Shown here: piece by piece, positions 7,809 to 18,640 of the stretch
Position numbering within the stretch: position 1 is the stretch's first letter
Layout: each line of letters starts with the position of its first letter
Origin: Candidatus Poribacteria bacterium
GTDB lineage: Bacteria > Poribacteria > DTPJ01 > WJIO01
Direction of reading: 5' to 3'
NCBI GenBank assembly: GCA_014730235.1
Contig: WJIO01000109.1
Span: forward strand, 1-19,438
DNA length: 19,438 nucleotides
Program-made: the position numbers and the translations under genes
Notes under the pieces: model-generated
The model's input: the letters and a program-made list of their open reading frames with translations, nothing else
Database searches by the model: none
Told to the model about the DNA's origin: nothing

Positions 7809-7863
7809 AACAGAAATAGAAAACGCCTCGTTAATGAAAAACGAGGCGTTTTCTATTTCTGTT
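7809..7863. terminator. Strong bidirectional hairpin terminator
   Basis: Arms 7809-7832 and 7840-7863 are perfectly complementary over 24 bp with a 7-base loop. The centre is GC-rich (acgcctcgtt / aacgaggcgt) and is flanked by A-rich sequence on the left and T-rich sequence on the right, so either strand reads as stem plus T tract. It lies between the lipoprotein genes and genes read from the other strand, as expected for a two-way terminator. Confidence 0.88.
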
Positions 7864-10996: not shown

Positions 10997-12583
10997 TTAT
11001 GACATCATCTTTTCCTTCAAAAGCCTCTGCATGTTACCACCCATAATCAAACGTTTATCCTTTTCGGATATATTGGCGTAAAGCACCTGGGCCATTCCCC
11101 AGCCGATAGGTAAGTCCGTAAGATCAGAGCCAAACATGATCCTGTCAGCACCGTATATTTTAACGTAGTGTTCCGCATCACCAAGACGAAGCAGAGGACA
11201 GGTGCAAATGTATAGATTATCGACCTTTTTTGTCACTTCTGCATAGGCTTTTGTAGCATGTCCAGTTATGAAACAGGCTTTGGGATATGTCTTACACAGT
11301 CGTTCTATCTGAGCCGGCGAACCCCAGTTATGGTTAAGGATAAACAGGTTATGCTCATGGGTAAATTCACAGGCGAAATCTACAAGACTACCTTCCGGTG
11401 GGTAGCCATGATAATCGTTAATTAGCTTAACACCTTTCATGCCCATTTCCAGCCCTCTCTGTAGCTCATTACCGACAATTTTTTCTCCATGATTCAGATT
11501 AAGCAACGTGAAACCGATGAACCGATCCGGAAACTGATGTATTACTTTTGCCACCTCTTCATTTCCGTATGTTTCATCGCCAAAAACCCCCTCAAGGCTG
11601 AATACGAAACACCTCTGGATACCGAACTTATCCATCTCTTTGACTAAGTCTTCCGGTTTATCATGGACTACATGATGGGGTGTACACCAACCGATATGCC
11701 CATGACAATCATCAAAGTCTTCATCAGCTAAAGATAAACGCTCTCTGGCTTTTTTATGAAGGTTATCAACAGGTTCGCTGAAATCCACATTGTCAATAAA
11801 CTCTATGCTGGAATTCCATGAAAGCATTTTTCGCATGTTTCCGCTGGCTATCATGGATAGCTCTTCATGGGATATATCGGAGTAATTCAACTGCATCATG
11901 GGTATTCCCGGATTACGCTCAGGAAGCTGAGAACCCCAAACCAGGCGTTCTGCTCCCCAGTTTTTGCATATAAATTCTATACTCCTGTGCAGCCACCAGG
12001 ATGAAATGTCAAACTTGAGATTCGGACAGGCTTCCAGGGCAGCATAGGCAGCCCTCTGGCTTTTGTATGTACGGCTTTCGGTAACAATAACAGGTAGTTG
12101 GGGAAATTTCCTGCATATCCTTACTATATTCGACCAGTCGGTAACATCCATAGATACCATACGCCAGTTGATGGGACACATAAAAACAGGGACATGAAAT
12201 TCCTCCAGTACCTCAAGAAGGTCGTCAACACCCCATTCATCCAGCCTTATATCAAACTGGCCATAAAACATATATAACGCGCCTACATCAAACTCCTGCA
12301 TTTGTGCAACCAATTCCTTTGGAGGTGGTAATTCCTGGCTTTGAGTCATCAACACAGCCCAGGCCGGATGCAGCCGAGTATGATCTTTGGTTCTCTCTAC
12401 TATTCTCCGGTTGCCGGCCATAGGGTTGGTTTCACGGGATAAAACATCTATGACCAGAGATTCATGAATACAAAAGTGATCCATTAAAGATATAATTTCA
12501 TCAGCGGTCTCAGGTTGATCTCCGCTCATGTGAACGTGCCTACCCAAGTAACAGCAGGAATCAAAATATGTAATATTATCCAT
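10997..12583 (-). CDS. Tandem amidohydrolase (amidohydrolase_2 fold), N-terminal half degenerate
   Basis: The 528-residue cytoplasmic protein holds two TIM-barrel amidohydrolase modules. The C-terminal module (about 288-528) has all the expected metal-site residues: DCHGHIG (H294, H296), NHNW (H418), TGHA (H442) and FGSD (D487). The N-terminal module (1-260) aligns by its ending (GAERLVWGSQLP...MIASGNMRKML versus GADRIMFGSDLT...IMGGNMQRLL) but has S9-C10-C11 in place of HxH and Q219 in place of the Asp. It is therefore probably a structural or regulatory partner. The family includes metal-dependent hydrolases and decarboxylases (ACMSD-like); the substrate is unknown. Each module is somewhat shorter than a usual single-domain member. 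A good promoter (12677-12705) and two palindromes in the leader imply regulated expression. SD is gaaagg, about 8 bases before ATG. Confidence 0.8.
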   Translation of the reverse strand: MDNITYFDSCCYLGRHVHMSGDQPETADEIISLMDHFCIHESLVIDVLSRETNPMAGNRRIVERTKDHTRLHPAWAVLMTQSQELPPPKELVAQMQEFDVGALYMFYGQFDIRLDEWGVDDLLEVLEEFHVPVFMCPINWRMVSMDVTDWSNIVRICRKFPQLPVIVTESRTYKSQRAAYAALEACPNLKFDISSWWLHRSIEFICKNWGAERLVWGSQLPERNPGIPMMQLNYSDISHEELSMIASGNMRKMLSWNSSIEFIDNVDFSEPVDNLHKKARERLSLADEDFDDCHGHIGWCTPHHVVHDKPEDLVKEMDKFGIQRCFVFSLEGVFGDETYGNEEVAKVIHQFPDRFIGFTLLNLNHGEKIVGNELQRGLEMGMKGVKLINDYHGYPPEGSLVDFACEFTHEHNLFILNHNWGSPAQIERLCKTYPKACFITGHATKAYAEVTKKVDNLYICTCPLLRLGDAEHYVKIYGADRIMFGSDLTDLPIGWGMAQVLYANISEKDKRLIMGGNMQRLLKEKMMS

Positions 12584-12676: not shown

Positions 12677-12705
12677 ATAATAACAGGAATAGAAACAAAT
12701 GTCAA
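12677..12705 (-). promoter_or_regulatory. Sigma-70-type promoter for the tandem amidohydrolase
   Basis: On the - strand, TTGACA (12700-12705) is followed after exactly 17 bases by TATTAT (12677-12682), which is preceded by TG one base upstream (extended -10). Transcription would start near 12670 and give a leader of about 87 bases carrying the two operator-like palindromes. Confidence 0.7.
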
Positions 12706-12712
12706 ATTTCCG

Positions 12713-12970
12713 TTGGTATTTCAAAGCATAAATTTCTTGTCTGGATCCAAGCATAAAATTTATGTCCCTGTGTTATTGCGAAGAACTGGGTAACAAGTAA
12801 AGTTTGGTTATTCCGGGTTGAGTGTGTTAAAGATAAGAAACTACTATATGCTGTCATTCCTGCGAAAGCAGGAATGACAGGCTGAGAGAATTTTCAAATT
12901 ATTACCATACTTAAACCGCAAGAGCCAAAGTTTTCACGTACATAAATTTTATGCTTGGTTGGTATTTTCA
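12713..12970. repeat. Long-hairpin repetitive element, copy A (core 12747-12958)
   Basis: The core is bounded by a perfect 19-bp inverted repeat (12747-12765 and 12940-12958; ccaagcataaaatttatgt and its complement). Between these, the two halves are imperfectly complementary along most of their length and meet in a perfect 13-bp stem with a GAAA loop (12851-12880), so the whole element can fold back on itself. The left half carries an extra ~30 bases (about 12766-12795). Segment 12868-12953 matches copy B (18453-18545) in reverse orientation at 78 of 86 positions with one 7-base gap. Near-identical direct repeats ttggtatttca (12713-12723) and ttggtattttca (12959-12970) flank the core and could be a target duplication. 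No ORF lies inside. It resembles a MITE or REP-like non-autonomous element. Confidence 0.75.
12851..12880. repeat. Central GAAA-capped hairpin of element A
   Basis: Arms ctgtcattcctgc (12851-12863) and gcaggaatgacag (12868-12880) pair perfectly over 13 bp around GAAA. From memory, very similar TCATTCC-GCGAAAGC-GGAATGA hairpins are dispersed in many unrelated bacterial genomes (for example the dRS3 repeats of Neisseria have the same ATTCC...GGAAT layout). Alone it lacks a T tract, so it is not a typical terminator. Confidence 0.8.
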
Positions 12971-13004
12971 GGGGTAAATTTTACTTGGTGGAGATATTCC
13001 GCAC

Positions 13005-13033
13005 TTGCTTTTCCCGGCTCAGGATTGTATAAT
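13005..13033 (+). promoter_or_regulatory. Candidate promoter for the isomerase-oxidoreductase operon
   Basis: TTGCTT (13005-13010, 3 of 6) and a perfect TATAAT (13028-13033) are separated by 17 bases. Transcription would begin near 13040, giving a leader of about 94 bases before the ATG at 13134. No operator-like palindrome like the one on the other side was seen in this leader. Confidence 0.5.
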
Positions 13034-13133
13034 ACAGGCATTAGCGTTGATAAATTATACCAAGTAGGGAATGGCAAGTAAAAGGTATAGACTATATTGA
13101 AACTCGCTCAAAAAATCAGGAAAGGAAAAGAGG

Positions 13134-15017
13134 ATGTATTTATCCATATTTACCGATGAATTAGGTGTTGATATAACGGAAGGTTTACCGATAATAAAAT
13201 CCTGGGGGTTGGAATATGTTGACCTCAGGGGTAGGGTTTTTGGTAAAGCTGCTGAAGCGCTGCCTCCAGAAAAACTTCCTGAATTACGAAAGCTTATAGA
13301 CGACCACGGTATGAAGGTTGGATGTCTGCAATCCTCCCTGGCAAAAGTGCATCTGCCGGACAAGGAACGACAAAAGGCCGAAGCAGAAAAACTTGAGGGT
13401 ATTATCCGGGCTGCTGACGCTCTGGACTGTCGAATGGTGAGGTCTTTCTTCTACTGGCAGCCGCCAAGGGAACTGGCTGGCCAGTTAGCAGTCAGGCCTG
13501 ATGAACAACAGAAAGTCCTGGATATGTTTGGGCCTTTGGCTGAAAGAGCCAAAGAAGCCGGTCTTATAATGACCTTTGAAAACTGCGGCGTTACTGCCGA
13601 TGAAGTAATAACTATTGTTGATGCCCTGGGTGTAACTAGCTGGGGTCTTGCGTGGGATGTCTGTAACGGTTGGAATGATGAAGAAAGGCGTAAAGATGAA
13701 GATGCTTATATCCTGAGACTAGCCCAGCTATCCAAGTTACTGCACGTAAAAGCCCAATGCGCTATTGAAGGTCTGGGAGATGAAACGATCCCCTATGACA
13801 AAGTATTAAATATATGCCATAACGCAGGTTTGCCGGGGCCCGTAAGTGTTGAAACCCATAATCCGGATCGCTCTATAAGTAATGTGGAGATGTCCAAGCA
13901 GGTTGTAGATGTTCTTAAGAAAGCCTGGCCATCCGCCGCTCCCGGTGGATTATTCGAGGAAAACAGATCAGATAAGGGAATAGTGCGTCCCTGGTCTGAT
14001 GATCCTGTTGGTTTTGTAGTGGTTGGATTGGGTATGGGACACAGCAGGGCCAAACAGGTTAAAAATACCACTGGAAACCGCTTAATTGGTGTGTGCGATA
14101 TTGTGGAAGAAAGAGCAAAACGAACTGCTGAAGAATGCGATGTTCCTTACACAACTGATCTCAAAGAATGGTTGGATAACGATGAGGTGGAAGTTATCTA
14201 TGTGGTTACTGAAACTGGCAATCATGCAGAAGTAGCAATACAGGCACTGGAAGCTGGAAAGCATGTATTGAGTACAAAACCTATGGAAGCATCCCTGGAA
14301 GCATGCGACCGGGAAATCCGAAAAGCTGAGGAAAAAGGTCTTATACTGGGTATCGACTTTGACCGAAGATTTGTGACTGAAACCCACACCCTCAGAGCAT
14401 GCATTAAAGACGGAATGTTCGGAAAGCTGCTTTACAGCACATGCGGTCTGAAGGTTCTCAGGACTATGGCATATTTCAATTCTAACGGCGGCTGGCGTGG
14501 TACAAGGCGATGGGATGGCGGTGGTGTATTGTCAAATCAGGCCATACATAATCTGGATGAAGTTGCTTTTACCCTGGGTATACCGGCAAGGGTTAAATGT
14601 GATATATGGACTCAAAATCACGACATTGAAGCAGAAGACCTGGGAACGGCTGTATGGGAATATAATAACGGTCTTATAATTACATATTACGCCACTACAT
14701 GCTATCCCCATTCCACATGGTATCGTCAGTATGAGGTATCAGGAACAGAAGGAGCGTATTTCTCAGCCAGCGGAGGCCCGTTCCAGAAATCTGTTATCCG
14801 ATGGTTCTATGACAACGCATGGGCAGATAGACCGCCTATTGAAGGTAAGTTGGAATGGATAAATGCCACAGATAACTTTGCTGCTGCTGTTAGAGGCGAG
14901 GGGGAATTATTATGTCCTGGTCGGGAAGGAAGAAAATCCCAGTCTATACTGGATGCCATGTATCGTTCGGCTTATGAAGCTGACGGTGGATGGGTAGATG
15001 TGAATTCAGAGTTATAA
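13134..15017 (+). CDS. Sugar isomerase/epimerase - Gfo/Idh/MocA oxidoreductase fusion
   Basis: The 627-residue protein joins two enzymes. Residues 1-265 are a xylose-isomerase-like TIM barrel (AP endonuclease 2 superfamily) with the metal quartet E149 (MTFENCG), D175 (LAWDVCNGW), H204 (LLHVKA) and E240 (VSVETHNP). Residues 293-627 are a Gfo/Idh/MocA dehydrogenase: Rossmann loop VGLGMGHS (G298, G300, G302), STKPMEAS with K382-P383 (the usual EKP lysine), and H472/D475 in NQAIHNLDE as catalytic candidates. Both halves keep their active-site residues, so a two-step conversion (keto-sugar or cyclitol isomerisation and NAD(P)-dependent oxidation) is likely. The pairing recalls IolE/IolG of inositol breakdown as separate proteins, but the substrate is unknown. 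No signal peptide. SD-like aggaaaggaaaagagg precedes ATG. The next gene follows after 12 bases. Confidence 0.85.
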   Translation: MYLSIFTDELGVDITEGLPIIKSWGLEYVDLRGRVFGKAAEALPPEKLPELRKLIDDHGMKVGCLQSSLAKVHLPDKERQKAEAEKLEGIIRAADALDCRMVRSFFYWQPPRELAGQLAVRPDEQQKVLDMFGPLAERAKEAGLIMTFENCGVTADEVITIVDALGVTSWGLAWDVCNGWNDEERRKDEDAYILRLAQLSKLLHVKAQCAIEGLGDETIPYDKVLNICHNAGLPGPVSVETHNPDRSISNVEMSKQVVDVLKKAWPSAAPGGLFEENRSDKGIVRPWSDDPVGFVVVGLGMGHSRAKQVKNTTGNRLIGVCDIVEERAKRTAEECDVPYTTDLKEWLDNDEVEVIYVVTETGNHAEVAIQALEAGKHVLSTKPMEASLEACDREIRKAEEKGLILGIDFDRRFVTETHTLRACIKDGMFGKLLYSTCGLKVLRTMAYFNSNGGWRGTRRWDGGGVLSNQAIHNLDEVAFTLGIPARVKCDIWTQNHDIEAEDLGTAVWEYNNGLIITYYATTCYPHSTWYRQYEVSGTEGAYFSASGGPFQKSVIRWFYDNAWADRPPIEGKLEWINATDNFAAAVRGEGELLCPGREGRKSQSILDAMYRSAYEADGGWVDVNSEL

Positions 15018-15029
15018 AGGAACTAAATC

Positions 15030-15995
15030 ATGACACCAAGAGAACGCTTTATATCAGCTTTGGAGTTAAAGCCAATTCCCGGTAGAGTTCCCCATTTTGA
15101 GCTGGTTTTCTTTTTGACTATGGAGGCATTTGGTAAGGTTCATCCGAGCCACAGAAGCTATCGTCAATGGGATCAGATGACAGATGAAGAACGTCAATAC
15201 CACAGGGAAGATATAGCCGATATACACATTAATACAGCCCTTAGATACGAACACAGCGCGATATTTTTGCATCCCAATCCAAGTAGTGAAGACGAGGCCA
15301 TGAGGCTTATTGATATTGTCCGGGATAAAACCGATAATGAATTTTTCCTGATGATGCACGGTGACGCAACTTACGGAATACCATCGGGAACAAATATGAC
15401 CGAATGGGTTGCCCGACTGGTGGAAAAACCCGACGAAGTAAAGGATGAAGCTGCAAGGCGCGTAGATAACGCATTGGCCAGAGGAGAACGCTTTGCACAG
15501 CATGGAGGCATAGACGGTTGGGCACTGTGCAGTGATTACTGCTTTAATACCGGTCCATTTCTAAGACCTGAGTGGTTTGCTGAATTTGTTACCCCTTACC
15601 TTAAACGTCTTATTGCGGGTTATCGGAATTTAGACCAGTATGTTATTAAACACACCGACGGCAATATAATGCCAATACTGGATCAGTTGGTTGACGCTAA
15701 TCCCCATGCTTTACATTCCCTGGATCCCCAGGGTGATGTGGATATCGCAGAGGTAAAAAGATTATATGGAGACAAAGTTTGCCTTATCGGGAATGTAAAC
15801 TGCGGTATGCTGACTACAGGAACTGATGAGGAATGTATTGAATCGGCTCGATACGCCATACAAAGCGGTATGCCGGGTGGAGGGTATGTCTTTTCCACCA
15901 GCAACTGCATATTTACAGGCATGCGCCTTGAACGTTATGAATTAATTCTTGACGTGTGGCGCAAAGAGGGCAACTATTCTTTTTCCCAAAATTGA
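15030..15995 (+). CDS. URO-D-like protein (methyltransferase type, not HemE)
   Basis: The 321-residue protein has the uroporphyrinogen-decarboxylase fold: TPRERFISALELKPIPGRVP at the start, KHTDGNIMPILDQLVD (H208), a GNVNCGMLTTGTDEEC turn and GGGYVFSTSNCIFTGM (C293) near the end. It lacks the Arg-rich MRQAGR loop of HemE, so heme synthesis is unlikely. In MtaA/CmuA-like members of this fold an H-x-C...C zinc site activates a thiol for methyl transfer from corrinoid proteins; here H208 and C293 match, with Asp (D210) in place of the first Cys. A Zn-dependent methyltransferase or demethylase role is inferred. No corrinoid-binding protein is in the window. SD aaagga lies 12 bases after the fusion gene stop, so the two are co-transcribed. 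Confidence 0.8.
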   Translation: MTPRERFISALELKPIPGRVPHFELVFFLTMEAFGKVHPSHRSYRQWDQMTDEERQYHREDIADIHINTALRYEHSAIFLHPNPSSEDEAMRLIDIVRDKTDNEFFLMMHGDATYGIPSGTNMTEWVARLVEKPDEVKDEAARRVDNALARGERFAQHGGIDGWALCSDYCFNTGPFLRPEWFAEFVTPYLKRLIAGYRNLDQYVIKHTDGNIMPILDQLVDANPHALHSLDPQGDVDIAEVKRLYGDKVCLIGNVNCGMLTTGTDEECIESARYAIQSGMPGGGYVFSTSNCIFTGMRLERYELILDVWRKEGNYSFSQN

Positions 15996-16013
15996 AGATA
16001 TATAGAATTTATA

Positions 16014-16047
16014 TATTGGACTCACGTTTTAAAACGTGAGTCCAATA
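16014..16047. repeat. 34-bp perfect palindrome between URO-D-like gene and alanine racemase
   Basis: Arms of 17 bp meet without a spacer: tattggactcacgtttt (16014-16030) and its exact complement (16031-16047). It sits 18 bases after the URO-D-like stop and 12 bases before the racemase ATG. It could fold as a hairpin but has no T tract on either strand, so it suits an operator, a translational control hairpin or a recombination-type site better than an intrinsic terminator. Confidence 0.85.
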
Positions 16048-16059
16048 AATTTAAAAATT

Positions 16060-17166
16060 ATGCTTACCTGGGTTGAGATAGATTTAAACGCTATATCCCA
16101 TAATATAAATCAAATAAAGGCAAAAGTCAAAGCCTATAATGCCGGTATTATGGCCATAATAAAAGATAACGCCTACAGTCATGGCGCAGTGAATGTTGCA
16201 CAAACGGCAACTAATACAGGTGTTAATATGCTAGGAGTTGCCACTGTAGAGGAAGCTGTTGAACTGCGGCAGGCTGGTATTGATCACCCAATCTTGATTA
16301 TCTGCGGCATACTGCCTGGACAAGCTGAAACTGTTGTTAAACATGATATAGCTCAGACTGTGTGCACGTTAGACACCTGTAAAGCTTTGTCAAAAGCGGC
16401 TGAAAAATGCGGGAAAAAAGCAAGAGTCCATGTGAAGATTGATACAGGAATGAACAGGATAGGCGTAAACTATCAAAACGCTTTAGATTTTATAAAGTCA
16501 GCTTTAGCTTTTCCTGCCCTCACAATGGAAGGTATAATGAGCCATTACGCCGTAGCCGAAACAGACAGAGATTTTACAGAACTTCAGCTTTCGCGCTTTA
16601 AGCAAACATTATCACAACTGGAAGATTCGGGAATTCGTATTCCTGTAAAACATACGGCCAACAGTGCTGCCATCCTAAGGTTTCCGGAATCATACTTTAA
16701 TATGGTTAGACCGGGACTTATAACTTATGGATTGTATCCATCCAAAGATCACTATGGACTGGATTTAAAACCAGCCCTCAGCTTTAAGACAAAGATATTT
16801 TACCTGAAGGAACTGCCACCCGGACAGGATATTAGCTATGGTCGCAGATATACCACATATAAGAAAACTCTTGTGGCATCTATCGCTGCGGGATATGGAC
16901 ATGGATACAGCAGAAGCTTGTTTAACAAAGGTGAGGTTATTATCAGGGGAAAAAGGGCGGCTGTAATAGGTACAATATGTATGGATCAGTGTTTATGTGA
17001 TGTGACACATATACCGGGAGTTTCTATCGGTGATGAAGTTGTTCTAATAGGTAAACAGGACGATCAGGAAATTACAGCCGACGAAGTGGCAGAAAAGATG
17101 GATACTATATCTTATGAAGTTTTGTGTCGAATTAACCCAAAAATTTCAAGAATTTATGTAAAATAA
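16060..17166 (+). CDS. alr: Alanine racemase
   Basis: The 368-residue PLP enzyme interconverts L- and D-alanine for peptidoglycan. It opens with TWVEIDLNAISHNINQIK, has the PLP-lysine motif IIKDNAYSHG (K35; usually VKANAYGHG), KIDTGMNRIGV, TANSAAIL, NMVRPGLITYGLYP, the second catalytic base Y279 in AAGYGHGYSR (usually GYADGY), and GTICMDQ. Length and domain order are those of the family. The ATG at 16060 is chosen because family members begin a few residues before TWxEIDL; a GTG at 16036 in frame lies inside the 34-bp palindrome. No clear SD precedes either start (aaatttaaaaatt), which is unusual beside the strong SDs around it. It may be read through from the URO-D-like gene. Its stop is 10 bases from the convergent gene. 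Confidence 0.93.
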   Translation: MLTWVEIDLNAISHNINQIKAKVKAYNAGIMAIIKDNAYSHGAVNVAQTATNTGVNMLGVATVEEAVELRQAGIDHPILIICGILPGQAETVVKHDIAQTVCTLDTCKALSKAAEKCGKKARVHVKIDTGMNRIGVNYQNALDFIKSALAFPALTMEGIMSHYAVAETDRDFTELQLSRFKQTLSQLEDSGIRIPVKHTANSAAILRFPESYFNMVRPGLITYGLYPSKDHYGLDLKPALSFKTKIFYLKELPPGQDISYGRRYTTYKKTLVASIAAGYGHGYSRSLFNKGEVIIRGKRAAVIGTICMDQCLCDVTHIPGVSIGDEVVLIGKQDDQEITADEVAEKMDTISYEVLCRINPKISRIYVK

Positions 17167-17176
17167 TTCCTGATGA

Positions 17177-18280
17177 TCAGCAACCAAAATATCCGTGATA
17201 GGCATCCACAGCAGCGAGATAATTGTCTGGTTTAACATCCTTATGAACCAGATTGCTGGTGCAGATGATATGCCCTCCGTTACCCCAGCCATCCTGAATA
17301 CACTTGACCATTTCCTTTCTGCAATCATCCGGAGTGCCTTTTGTGAATGTCCACCTTATATCCAGATTACCAACAAAACAGATGCGATCTCCGTATTCCC
17401 TTTTTAACCTGGCCATATCCATGCCAGCGGCTTTATCTATCTCACCAAATCCATCAACGTTGGTTCCTATCAGAAAGTCATCCAGAATGGGCCAGAGATC
17501 ACCATCAGAAGTATTATTAACAAACACCCCTAGCTTATGTAAAGCATCAGCCTGTTTGCGTATCTGAGGCATAATGAATTCCCGGAAATGCTGTGGTGAA
17601 ATCATGGGACCTTTATCAGATGCCAGATCGCCGCCTAATCCGATGACTTCAGCGCCCATCTCCACCAGCTTTGTTCCCGAGTTAATGGCATTACGAGTAC
17701 ATTCATCATAATATTCATGGAGCTTTTCAGGATCAGTGACAAACCATGCCAGCCTTGCGCCCAGGACAGCAACGGGGATAGCGTAAAGGGGTGAAAAAAT
17801 AGCAAGTTCAATTCCTTGCTCCTTCATAAGTTCTTTAACCCGACGGAAAACATAAAAAGCAGGTTCAGGAACTGATACAGTTTCCTTATTTATATATTCA
17901 TCTCGGGGTGAAGATTCATCACCTTTTGAGATAGTTCTGGTTATGTTGCTTTCCGGTAGATATTCATGAATTATACTGCTGGTTTCCCATCTGTATCTGG
18001 AGAGAGGGCGAGGTCGTTCAAAATCCGGGGTGATATTACGTCTTACACCGATCATATCAAAACCCAACTTGACGGCAATATCAATAATCTCCTGAGCTTC
18101 TGTTTCAACTATAGTTTGCCATGAGGCATCTCTGAGCATCTCCATTCTCTCGGTAAAACCGCATTTTTTACCCAATACAACCTCACGGGTAGGCGGAGCC
18201 ATTTCATACATCTCACCTATAGGTGTTCGGTCTACTTCCTCATGCCGATAGGCCTTCAACACCCTTTCTCTGCTTGTCAT
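17177..18280 (-). CDS. Second URO-D-like protein lacking the zinc-site His and Cys
   Basis: The 367-residue protein starts TSRERVLKAYRHEEVDRTPIGE and shows the URO-D fold: FSPLYAIPVAVLGARLAWF, EVIGLGGDLASDKGPMISPQHFREF, NNTSDGDLWPILDDFL, CFVGNLDIRWTFTKGTPDDC and IICTSNLVHKDVKPDNY. Against the 15030-15995 protein, T257 replaces the His and L344 replaces the C-terminal Cys, while the SDG (S258-G260) core is kept. HemE-type arginines are also absent. It is therefore a different functional class of the same fold, with unknown reaction. SD gaggt lies 6 bases before ATG. A candidate promoter sits about 125 bases upstream (18404-18431). It converges with the racemase across a 10-base gap with no visible terminator. 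Confidence 0.78.
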   Translation of the reverse strand: MTSRERVLKAYRHEEVDRTPIGEMYEMAPPTREVVLGKKCGFTERMEMLRDASWQTIVETEAQEIIDIAVKLGFDMIGVRRNITPDFERPRPLSRYRWETSSIIHEYLPESNITRTISKGDESSPRDEYINKETVSVPEPAFYVFRRVKELMKEQGIELAIFSPLYAIPVAVLGARLAWFVTDPEKLHEYYDECTRNAINSGTKLVEMGAEVIGLGGDLASDKGPMISPQHFREFIMPQIRKQADALHKLGVFVNNTSDGDLWPILDDFLIGTNVDGFGEIDKAAGMDMARLKREYGDRICFVGNLDIRWTFTKGTPDDCRKEMVKCIQDGWGNGGHIICTSNLVHKDVKPDNYLAAVDAYHGYFGC

Positions 18281-18403
18281 TGTTTACCTCGTTTTGGTAT
18301 CCCAGAAGGCCTTATAAAGCTCCTGTAGATCATATTTTAGTTAATTTTGAGGAATATCAGTTTGTATTTCTTTATCATAGTCCTTAAATGAAGATATAAA
18401 TCT

Positions 18404-18431
18404 ATTATACCAAAAGAAAGTAAAAATACAA
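18404..18431 (-). promoter_or_regulatory. Candidate extended -10 promoter for the second URO-D-like gene
   Basis: On the - strand, TTGGTATAAT (18404-18413) is a perfect TATAAT preceded by TGG (extended -10). A weak TTGTAT (18426-18431) lies 16 bases upstream. The leader would be about 115 bases. Confidence 0.5.
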
Positions 18432-18445
18432 TCAAATTTTAACCT

Positions 18446-18640
18446 TACCAAACATAAAATTTATGTCCATGAAAACTTTGGCTCTTCCGGTTTGATTATG
18501 GTAATAATTTGTAATTTGAAAATTATCTCAGCTTTTCATTCCTGCGGAGACAAGAATGAAAAGCAAAATAGATTTTTCCTGTATAACTTTTGATTTTTCT
18601 TCATTACCACACTAAATCCTGGAAGAGCCAAAGATTTTTA
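18446..18640. repeat. Long-hairpin repetitive element, copy B
   Basis: This copy lies inverted relative to copy A; 18453-18545 matches A 12868-12953 at 78 of 86 positions with a 7-base insertion (gtaattt, a local duplication). Its own arms include a perfect 13-bp inverted repeat ctttggctcttcc (18476-18488) / complement (18621-18633) and a central 11-bp stem gcttttcattc (18531-18541) / complement (18554-18564). The right half has decayed more than the left. No ORF lies inside. It occupies most of the 456-base gap between two divergent genes. Confidence 0.72.

Follow-up and report, generated by a model that had tools for sequence, protein, structure and literature searches.

A composite MITE in a Candidatus Poribacteria genome mostly lies at a fixed distance from predicted sigma70 promoters and is probably moved by an ISLre2/ISKra4-type transposase

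Two strongly folding repeats, elements A and B, lie in opposite orientation in a 19,438-nucleotide stretch of DNA from Candidatus Poribacteria bacterium (the window), and the question they raise is what kind of element they are and what determines where they stand. The window corresponds to contig C25 in an assembly of 5.53 Mb (451 contigs; 91.6% complete, 4.8% contamination). The inverted relationship described in the initial annotation was reproduced, positions 12889-12959 aligning with 18447-18517 at 89% identity over 71 nt, plus 81% over 48 nt. The reported match of 78 of 86 positions could not be reproduced ungapped, the best ungapped 86-mer giving 66. Both elements folded more strongly than dinucleotide shuffles (DNA z = -8.4 for A and -6.6 for B) and no ORF of at least 80 aa overlapped either of them, as had been described. 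The proposal of a mobile family had been made to depend on further copies; with element A as the query, dozens, close to full length, were recovered in the same genome at 80-93% identity. Elsewhere in the window, perfect or near-perfect short hairpins located directly 3' of genes at 7809-7863 and 16011-16050 are probably terminators.

The limits of element A were corrected to 12722-12958, position 12713 of the earlier coordinates being the start of a target duplication. This 9-bp duplication, TTGGTATTT, is present as exact copies on the left (12713-12721) and on the right (12959-12967). Reading along the + strand, A starts with an additional copy of its inverted end, CAAAGCATAAATTTCTTGTCTGGAT (12722-12746), which abuts the target duplication; this doubled left end recurs in another copy, L151:4389-4670 on contig C120. 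Alignment of the copies delimited a long outer arm (12747-12805) with the inverted end CCAAGCATAAAATTTATGTCCCTG at 12747-12770 and a short outer arm (12927-12958) with the inverted end CATAAATTTTATGCTTGG at 12941-12958. Between the arms lies an inner MITE, GGTTATTCCGGG...CCGCAAGAGCC (12806-12926), which occurs alone elsewhere with 8-bp duplications. It is bordered by the direct repeat AAAGTTT (12799-12805 and 12927-12933) and contains a central hairpin, CATTCCTGCGAAAGCAGGAATG (12855-12876), also seen in solo inner copies.

Element B extends from 18448 to about 18640 and reads along the - strand. It consists of an outer arm with the inverted end CCAAACATAAAATTTATGTCC (18448-18479), the inner MITE GGCTCTTCCGG...CTGGAAGAGCC (18480-18629; hairpin at 18537-18558) and a truncated side (18630-18640) without a second outer arm. 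No second inverted end of B was found within range. The arm that B retains beside the inner element is the short one; the long arm is missing, and a deletion would have removed it.

The outer element has inverted ends CCAAGCATAAA... (CCAAGCATAAAATTTATG...), of the type CCAAGC, and is flanked by a 9-bp target duplication. Its end CATAAATTTTATGCTTGG gave 174 matches with at most two mismatches in the 5.5 Mb genome, compared to one for the reversed control. Direct repeats at paired outer ends were exact 27 times at 9 bp, twice at 8 bp and never at 10-12 bp; this and the other pair searches were run on 1.37 Mb of the genome, mostly stretches with a known outer end, so its densities do not represent the genome as a whole. 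The outer element is short and ORF-less, with terminal inverted repeats, a duplication of fixed length and many unrelated sites, the features of a MITE, and the outer and composite forms measure about 160-360 bp. The outer family was not found in related genomes, and in the GTDB representatives, among which the window's own genome was perhaps left out, its end gave no more than six isolated matches, which fell in unrelated genera and were taken as chance. The outer end is nearly palindromic (CCAAGCATAAA/TTTATGCTTGG). Shorter forms look like deletion products, and a 23-bp form, CCAAGCATAAAATTTATGCCTGG, with the duplication TGTCAACAA at L143:2746-2768, would be the expected leftover of a deletion between two nearly palindromic ends.

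The inner element has ends GGYTCTTCCGG... (GGYTCTTCCGGG...CCCGGAAGARCC) and contains the central hairpin. Most of its solo copies measured 109-165 bp. They had an 8-bp duplication (90.5% A+T), exact at 49 places; at 9 bp there was no exact duplication. The inner end was matched 429 times in this genome, and a search of 83 others from the phylum returned no match. The central stem, likened earlier to hairpins widespread in bacteria, belongs to the inner element and is also the only part in common with one related genome, G001, of the same or a sister order. In composites of the long form (about 294 bp, e.g. L136:10002-10295), (G/A)AAGTTTT borders the inner element and reads as the trace of its own insertion, and the 7-bp AAAGTTT of A as what is left of this trace. 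At L177:4167-4331, an outer element with an exact 9-bp duplication contains no inner element, and CAGAAGTCTTTACGG runs uninterrupted across the junction. The presence of such an element in this genome settles the order of nesting: the inner MITE entered the outer one. As each composite has its own 9-bp duplication, composites then spread as units. Judged from their sequence, A and B are copies of this composite MITE. The earlier view of two copies of one element was right as to the repeats and overlooked both the nested pair and the promoter phasing described below.

Some other repeats were met beside these families. The element at L177:4167-4331 carries a different hairpin, CATTGCGA...TGCAATG, resembling another widespread bacterial repeat. 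An IS1182-like IS is located at 1126-2334 of L108 (G000:C228), with inverted ends ATGTAATCGTTAAAAAATG at about 1104 and 2418. Its end motif TAATCGTTAAAAAATG occurs 86 times in the 1.37 Mb, including 23 inward pairs 30-400 bp apart, thus making a third MITE family probable. In fourteen cases the motif is no more than 60 bp away from an inner-family end.

Sigma70-like promoters directed away from the element are present in the DNA flanking the outer ends; they were recognized as consensus matches with a score of 9 of 12 or more and compared with the expectation from composition-preserving shuffles. For 157 outer ends, the -35 hexamer was at index 16 in 45, at 15 in 13 and at 17 in 5, while the shuffles gave about 0.9 per position. 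When only insertions with a verified duplication were counted, the -35 was at index 16 in 24 of 37 (0.78 expected; Poisson p ~2e-27). A promoter at 15-17 was present on at least one side in 26 of the 37, other phases amounting to 6.5%, and about a fifth to a third of verified insertions were without a clear phased promoter. Solo inner MITEs of this genome served as a control, and 0 of 132 of their ends had a -35 at index 16.

Both elements of the window conform to the 16-bp spacing. The promoter predicted at A (12677-12705, - strand; -35 TTGACA at 12705-12700, 17-bp spacer, -10 TATTAT at 12682-12677) begins 16 bp beyond the end of A, facing the gene at 10997-12583. That predicted at B (18404-18431, - strand; -35 TTGTAT at 18431-18426, 16-bp spacer, -10 TATAAT at 18409-18404) begins 16 bp beyond the end of B, facing the gene at 17177-18280; its -35 is weak (3/6) and its -10 perfect. 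Bases 0-15, the duplication included, were hardly conserved except for a preference for T at index 9. TG at 36-37 (extended -10) was enriched, although it was outside the selection criteria. ORF starts were found 45-300 nt downstream of 54 of 64 phased ends vs 47 of 90 others. Both orientations relative to the promoter occurred (15 long-arm, 8 short-arm, 3 unassigned), and relics of the outer end, 23-30 bp long, also stand at phased promoters. The fixed promoter distance of the outer ends suggests that the moving enzyme recognizes promoters.

According to published work, TnGBS, ISLre2 (p-MULT3) and some ISs of the ISKra4 group (p-MULT4) insert 15-17 bp upstream of the -35, most often at 16 bp; they have 8-9 bp repeats and a conserved terminal C, and those with nearly symmetrical ends insert either way round (Guerillot et al. 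2014, PMC3942029). For TnGBS, its discoverers suggested that the RNA polymerase initiation complex is contacted. Since this promoter-targeting rule was on record, the genome was searched for UPF0236 (PF06782) transposases. Contig C354 contains a 1509-bp IS with 25-bp ends, CCAAGCATAAAAATAATGTTCCCTT, nearly the same as the MITE outer ends, a 442-aa UPF0236 transposase and a 9-bp duplication, CCGATTTGT. The transposase scored above the Pfam UPF0236 cut-off and reached 152.9 bits with the NCBIfam model for ISKra4 (cut-off 205) and 144.5 with that for ISLre2 (cut-off 200). With inverted ends, target duplications, many copies and this candidate transposase with matching ends, the non-autonomous mobile family proposed in the initial annotation is borne out; its statement that the repeats did not obviously belong to a named group no longer holds, as the outer element groups with ISLre2/ISKra4-type Mutator-like ISs.

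A second copy of the C354-type IS is divided between the ends of contigs C117 and C402, with ACGGGCTTG present in the flanks of both. Neither intact IS site (C354 and C117/C402; n=2) had a promoter at 16 bp, and the true partner may therefore be a related element like that on contig C45. That remnant, L259 (G000:C45) 1460-1740, encodes the C-terminal part of a diverged transposase, 72% identical, which stops just inside a MITE-type end, CCAAGCATAAAATTTACATCC; this ISLre2/ISKra4-type IS was apparently cut off by an IS3-type insertion. No complete IS with ends identical to those of the MITE was found, and the search for long outer-end pairs with a 9-bp duplication in the 1.37 Mb returned one poor match of 7.5 kb with two weak ends. 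In the transposase at L252 1459-2787 (- strand), Asp (GSADKAGD) stands at the place taken by Glu in relatives such as L253 (STVESAC), and the C45 relative also has Asp; this difference may fall on the third catalytic position.

Other transposases were considered as partners of the outer element and rejected. None of the DDE_Tnp_1 transposases of the genome was bordered by outer ends, the single match to the IS256-type PF00872 had ends not matching, and ISL3 has different ends and is nearly absent from the phylum. For the inner element, we take the ends GG(C/T)TCTTCCGG and the 8-bp AT-rich duplication to resemble those of ISL3. The assembly contains three ISL3 fragments, with ends including GGTTCATCCGG and GGATTCATCCGGG, similar to the inner ends but not identical. 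A complete ISL3 element with ends matching the inner MITE was not found in the assembly, and the inner element was therefore not filed as ISL3. Two of the fragments, L213 (G000:C342) and L214 (G000:C236), adjoin foreign-looking genes and possibly lie on contaminant contigs.

Related ISs elsewhere in the phylum (26-31% identity) have unrelated ends, GGGTGTGTAAA. In a small set read by eye, TTGACA was seen 15-17 bp from the right side of L268, L281 (duplication GTTTAGCGT), L282 and L273; L280 was similar with a weak -35, and the other copies were without the spacing. As the same spacing occurs despite unrelated ends, the rule probably belongs to the enzyme rather than to the end sequence. L275 and L282 (G082:C1) are two identical IS copies whose flanks begin ATGCTGAAC and GTTCAGCAT, mutual reverse complements, as an inversion between both IS copies would leave.

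We consider it very probable that the composite MITE is moved in trans by an ISLre2/ISKra4-type transposase of the Mutator superfamily that targets a point 16 bp upstream of the -35. In the sequence of events, an inner MITE entered an outer MITE and the combined unit then spread as one element. The transposase would act in trans on the outer ends and direct insertion to the fixed point upstream of the sigma70 -35 box, probably guided by contact with promoter-bound RNA polymerase, as in the analogous proposal for TnGBS.

The element is like ISLre2, TnGBS and ISKra4 in its spacing, 9-bp duplication, terminal C, both orientations and related transposase in the genome. Unlike them, it is a MITE of about 160-360 bp without a transposase gene, in high copy and with a second MITE inside; and unlike in ISLre2 and ISKra4 proper, the candidate transposase scores between both models and below both cut-offs. 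It is also like Correia elements in being small and intergenic, with inverted ends, a target duplication and many copies, often near gene starts (PMC10969869). Correia-type MITEs reportedly act via internal promoters or IHF sites (PMC10969869), whereas here the promoter is external and at a fixed distance. In that review of bacterial MITEs, ISLre2, ISKra4, Mutator and nested elements go unmentioned. The literature searched, which covered few subscription journals, yielded no description of promoter targeting by a high-copy, gene-less, composite element within a single genome. The insertion rule itself is known, and its use by such a MITE is what is added.

Host selection could in principle produce the same spacing, if insertion were random and copies were kept only where the palindromic end formed a regulator-binding site usefully spaced from a promoter. 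The nearly palindromic outer end with its one fixed upstream position would fit, as would the relics of only 23-30 bp at phased promoters; but we regard selection as improbable, since the phylum ISs share the spacing with unrelated ends, the rule was already published for this type of transposase (PMC3942029) and one-base precision across unrelated genes would be hard to obtain. It is very improbable that the outer arms are flanking DNA taken along by an inner MITE that is itself the active unit. The inner family is the more numerous and is found alone with its own duplications, so this reading holds for solo inner copies; for composites it is contradicted by the 9-bp duplications that border their outer ends at numerous unrelated sites, by the duplication of the outer element without the inner one and by the lack of promoter phasing in solo inner copies. 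REP-like palindromes, the other label offered at first, or ordinary leader or terminator hairpins would account for strong intergenic folding and for a central stem common to one related genome, but are contradicted by target duplications and transposon-type ends at many unrelated sites in units of 120-360 bp (REP/RAYT being a single short palindrome without target duplication), and no Rfam match was found in the window.

The promoter-directed transposition of a composite MITE thus remains the preferred reading. Most bacterial MITEs have been described merely as intergenic, while here the insertion rule is resolved to the base and lends support to the published view that the orientation of an element depends on how asymmetric its two ends are. 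It is conceivable, though rather unlikely, that the MITE end serves as an upstream (UP-like or regulator-bound) element at scores of promoters and thereby forms a shared regulatory layer. The dozens of sites provide a natural insertion set for asking how the transposase finds promoters and whether inserted ends alter expression, in a genome in which one MITE has been carried within another through many rounds of transposition.
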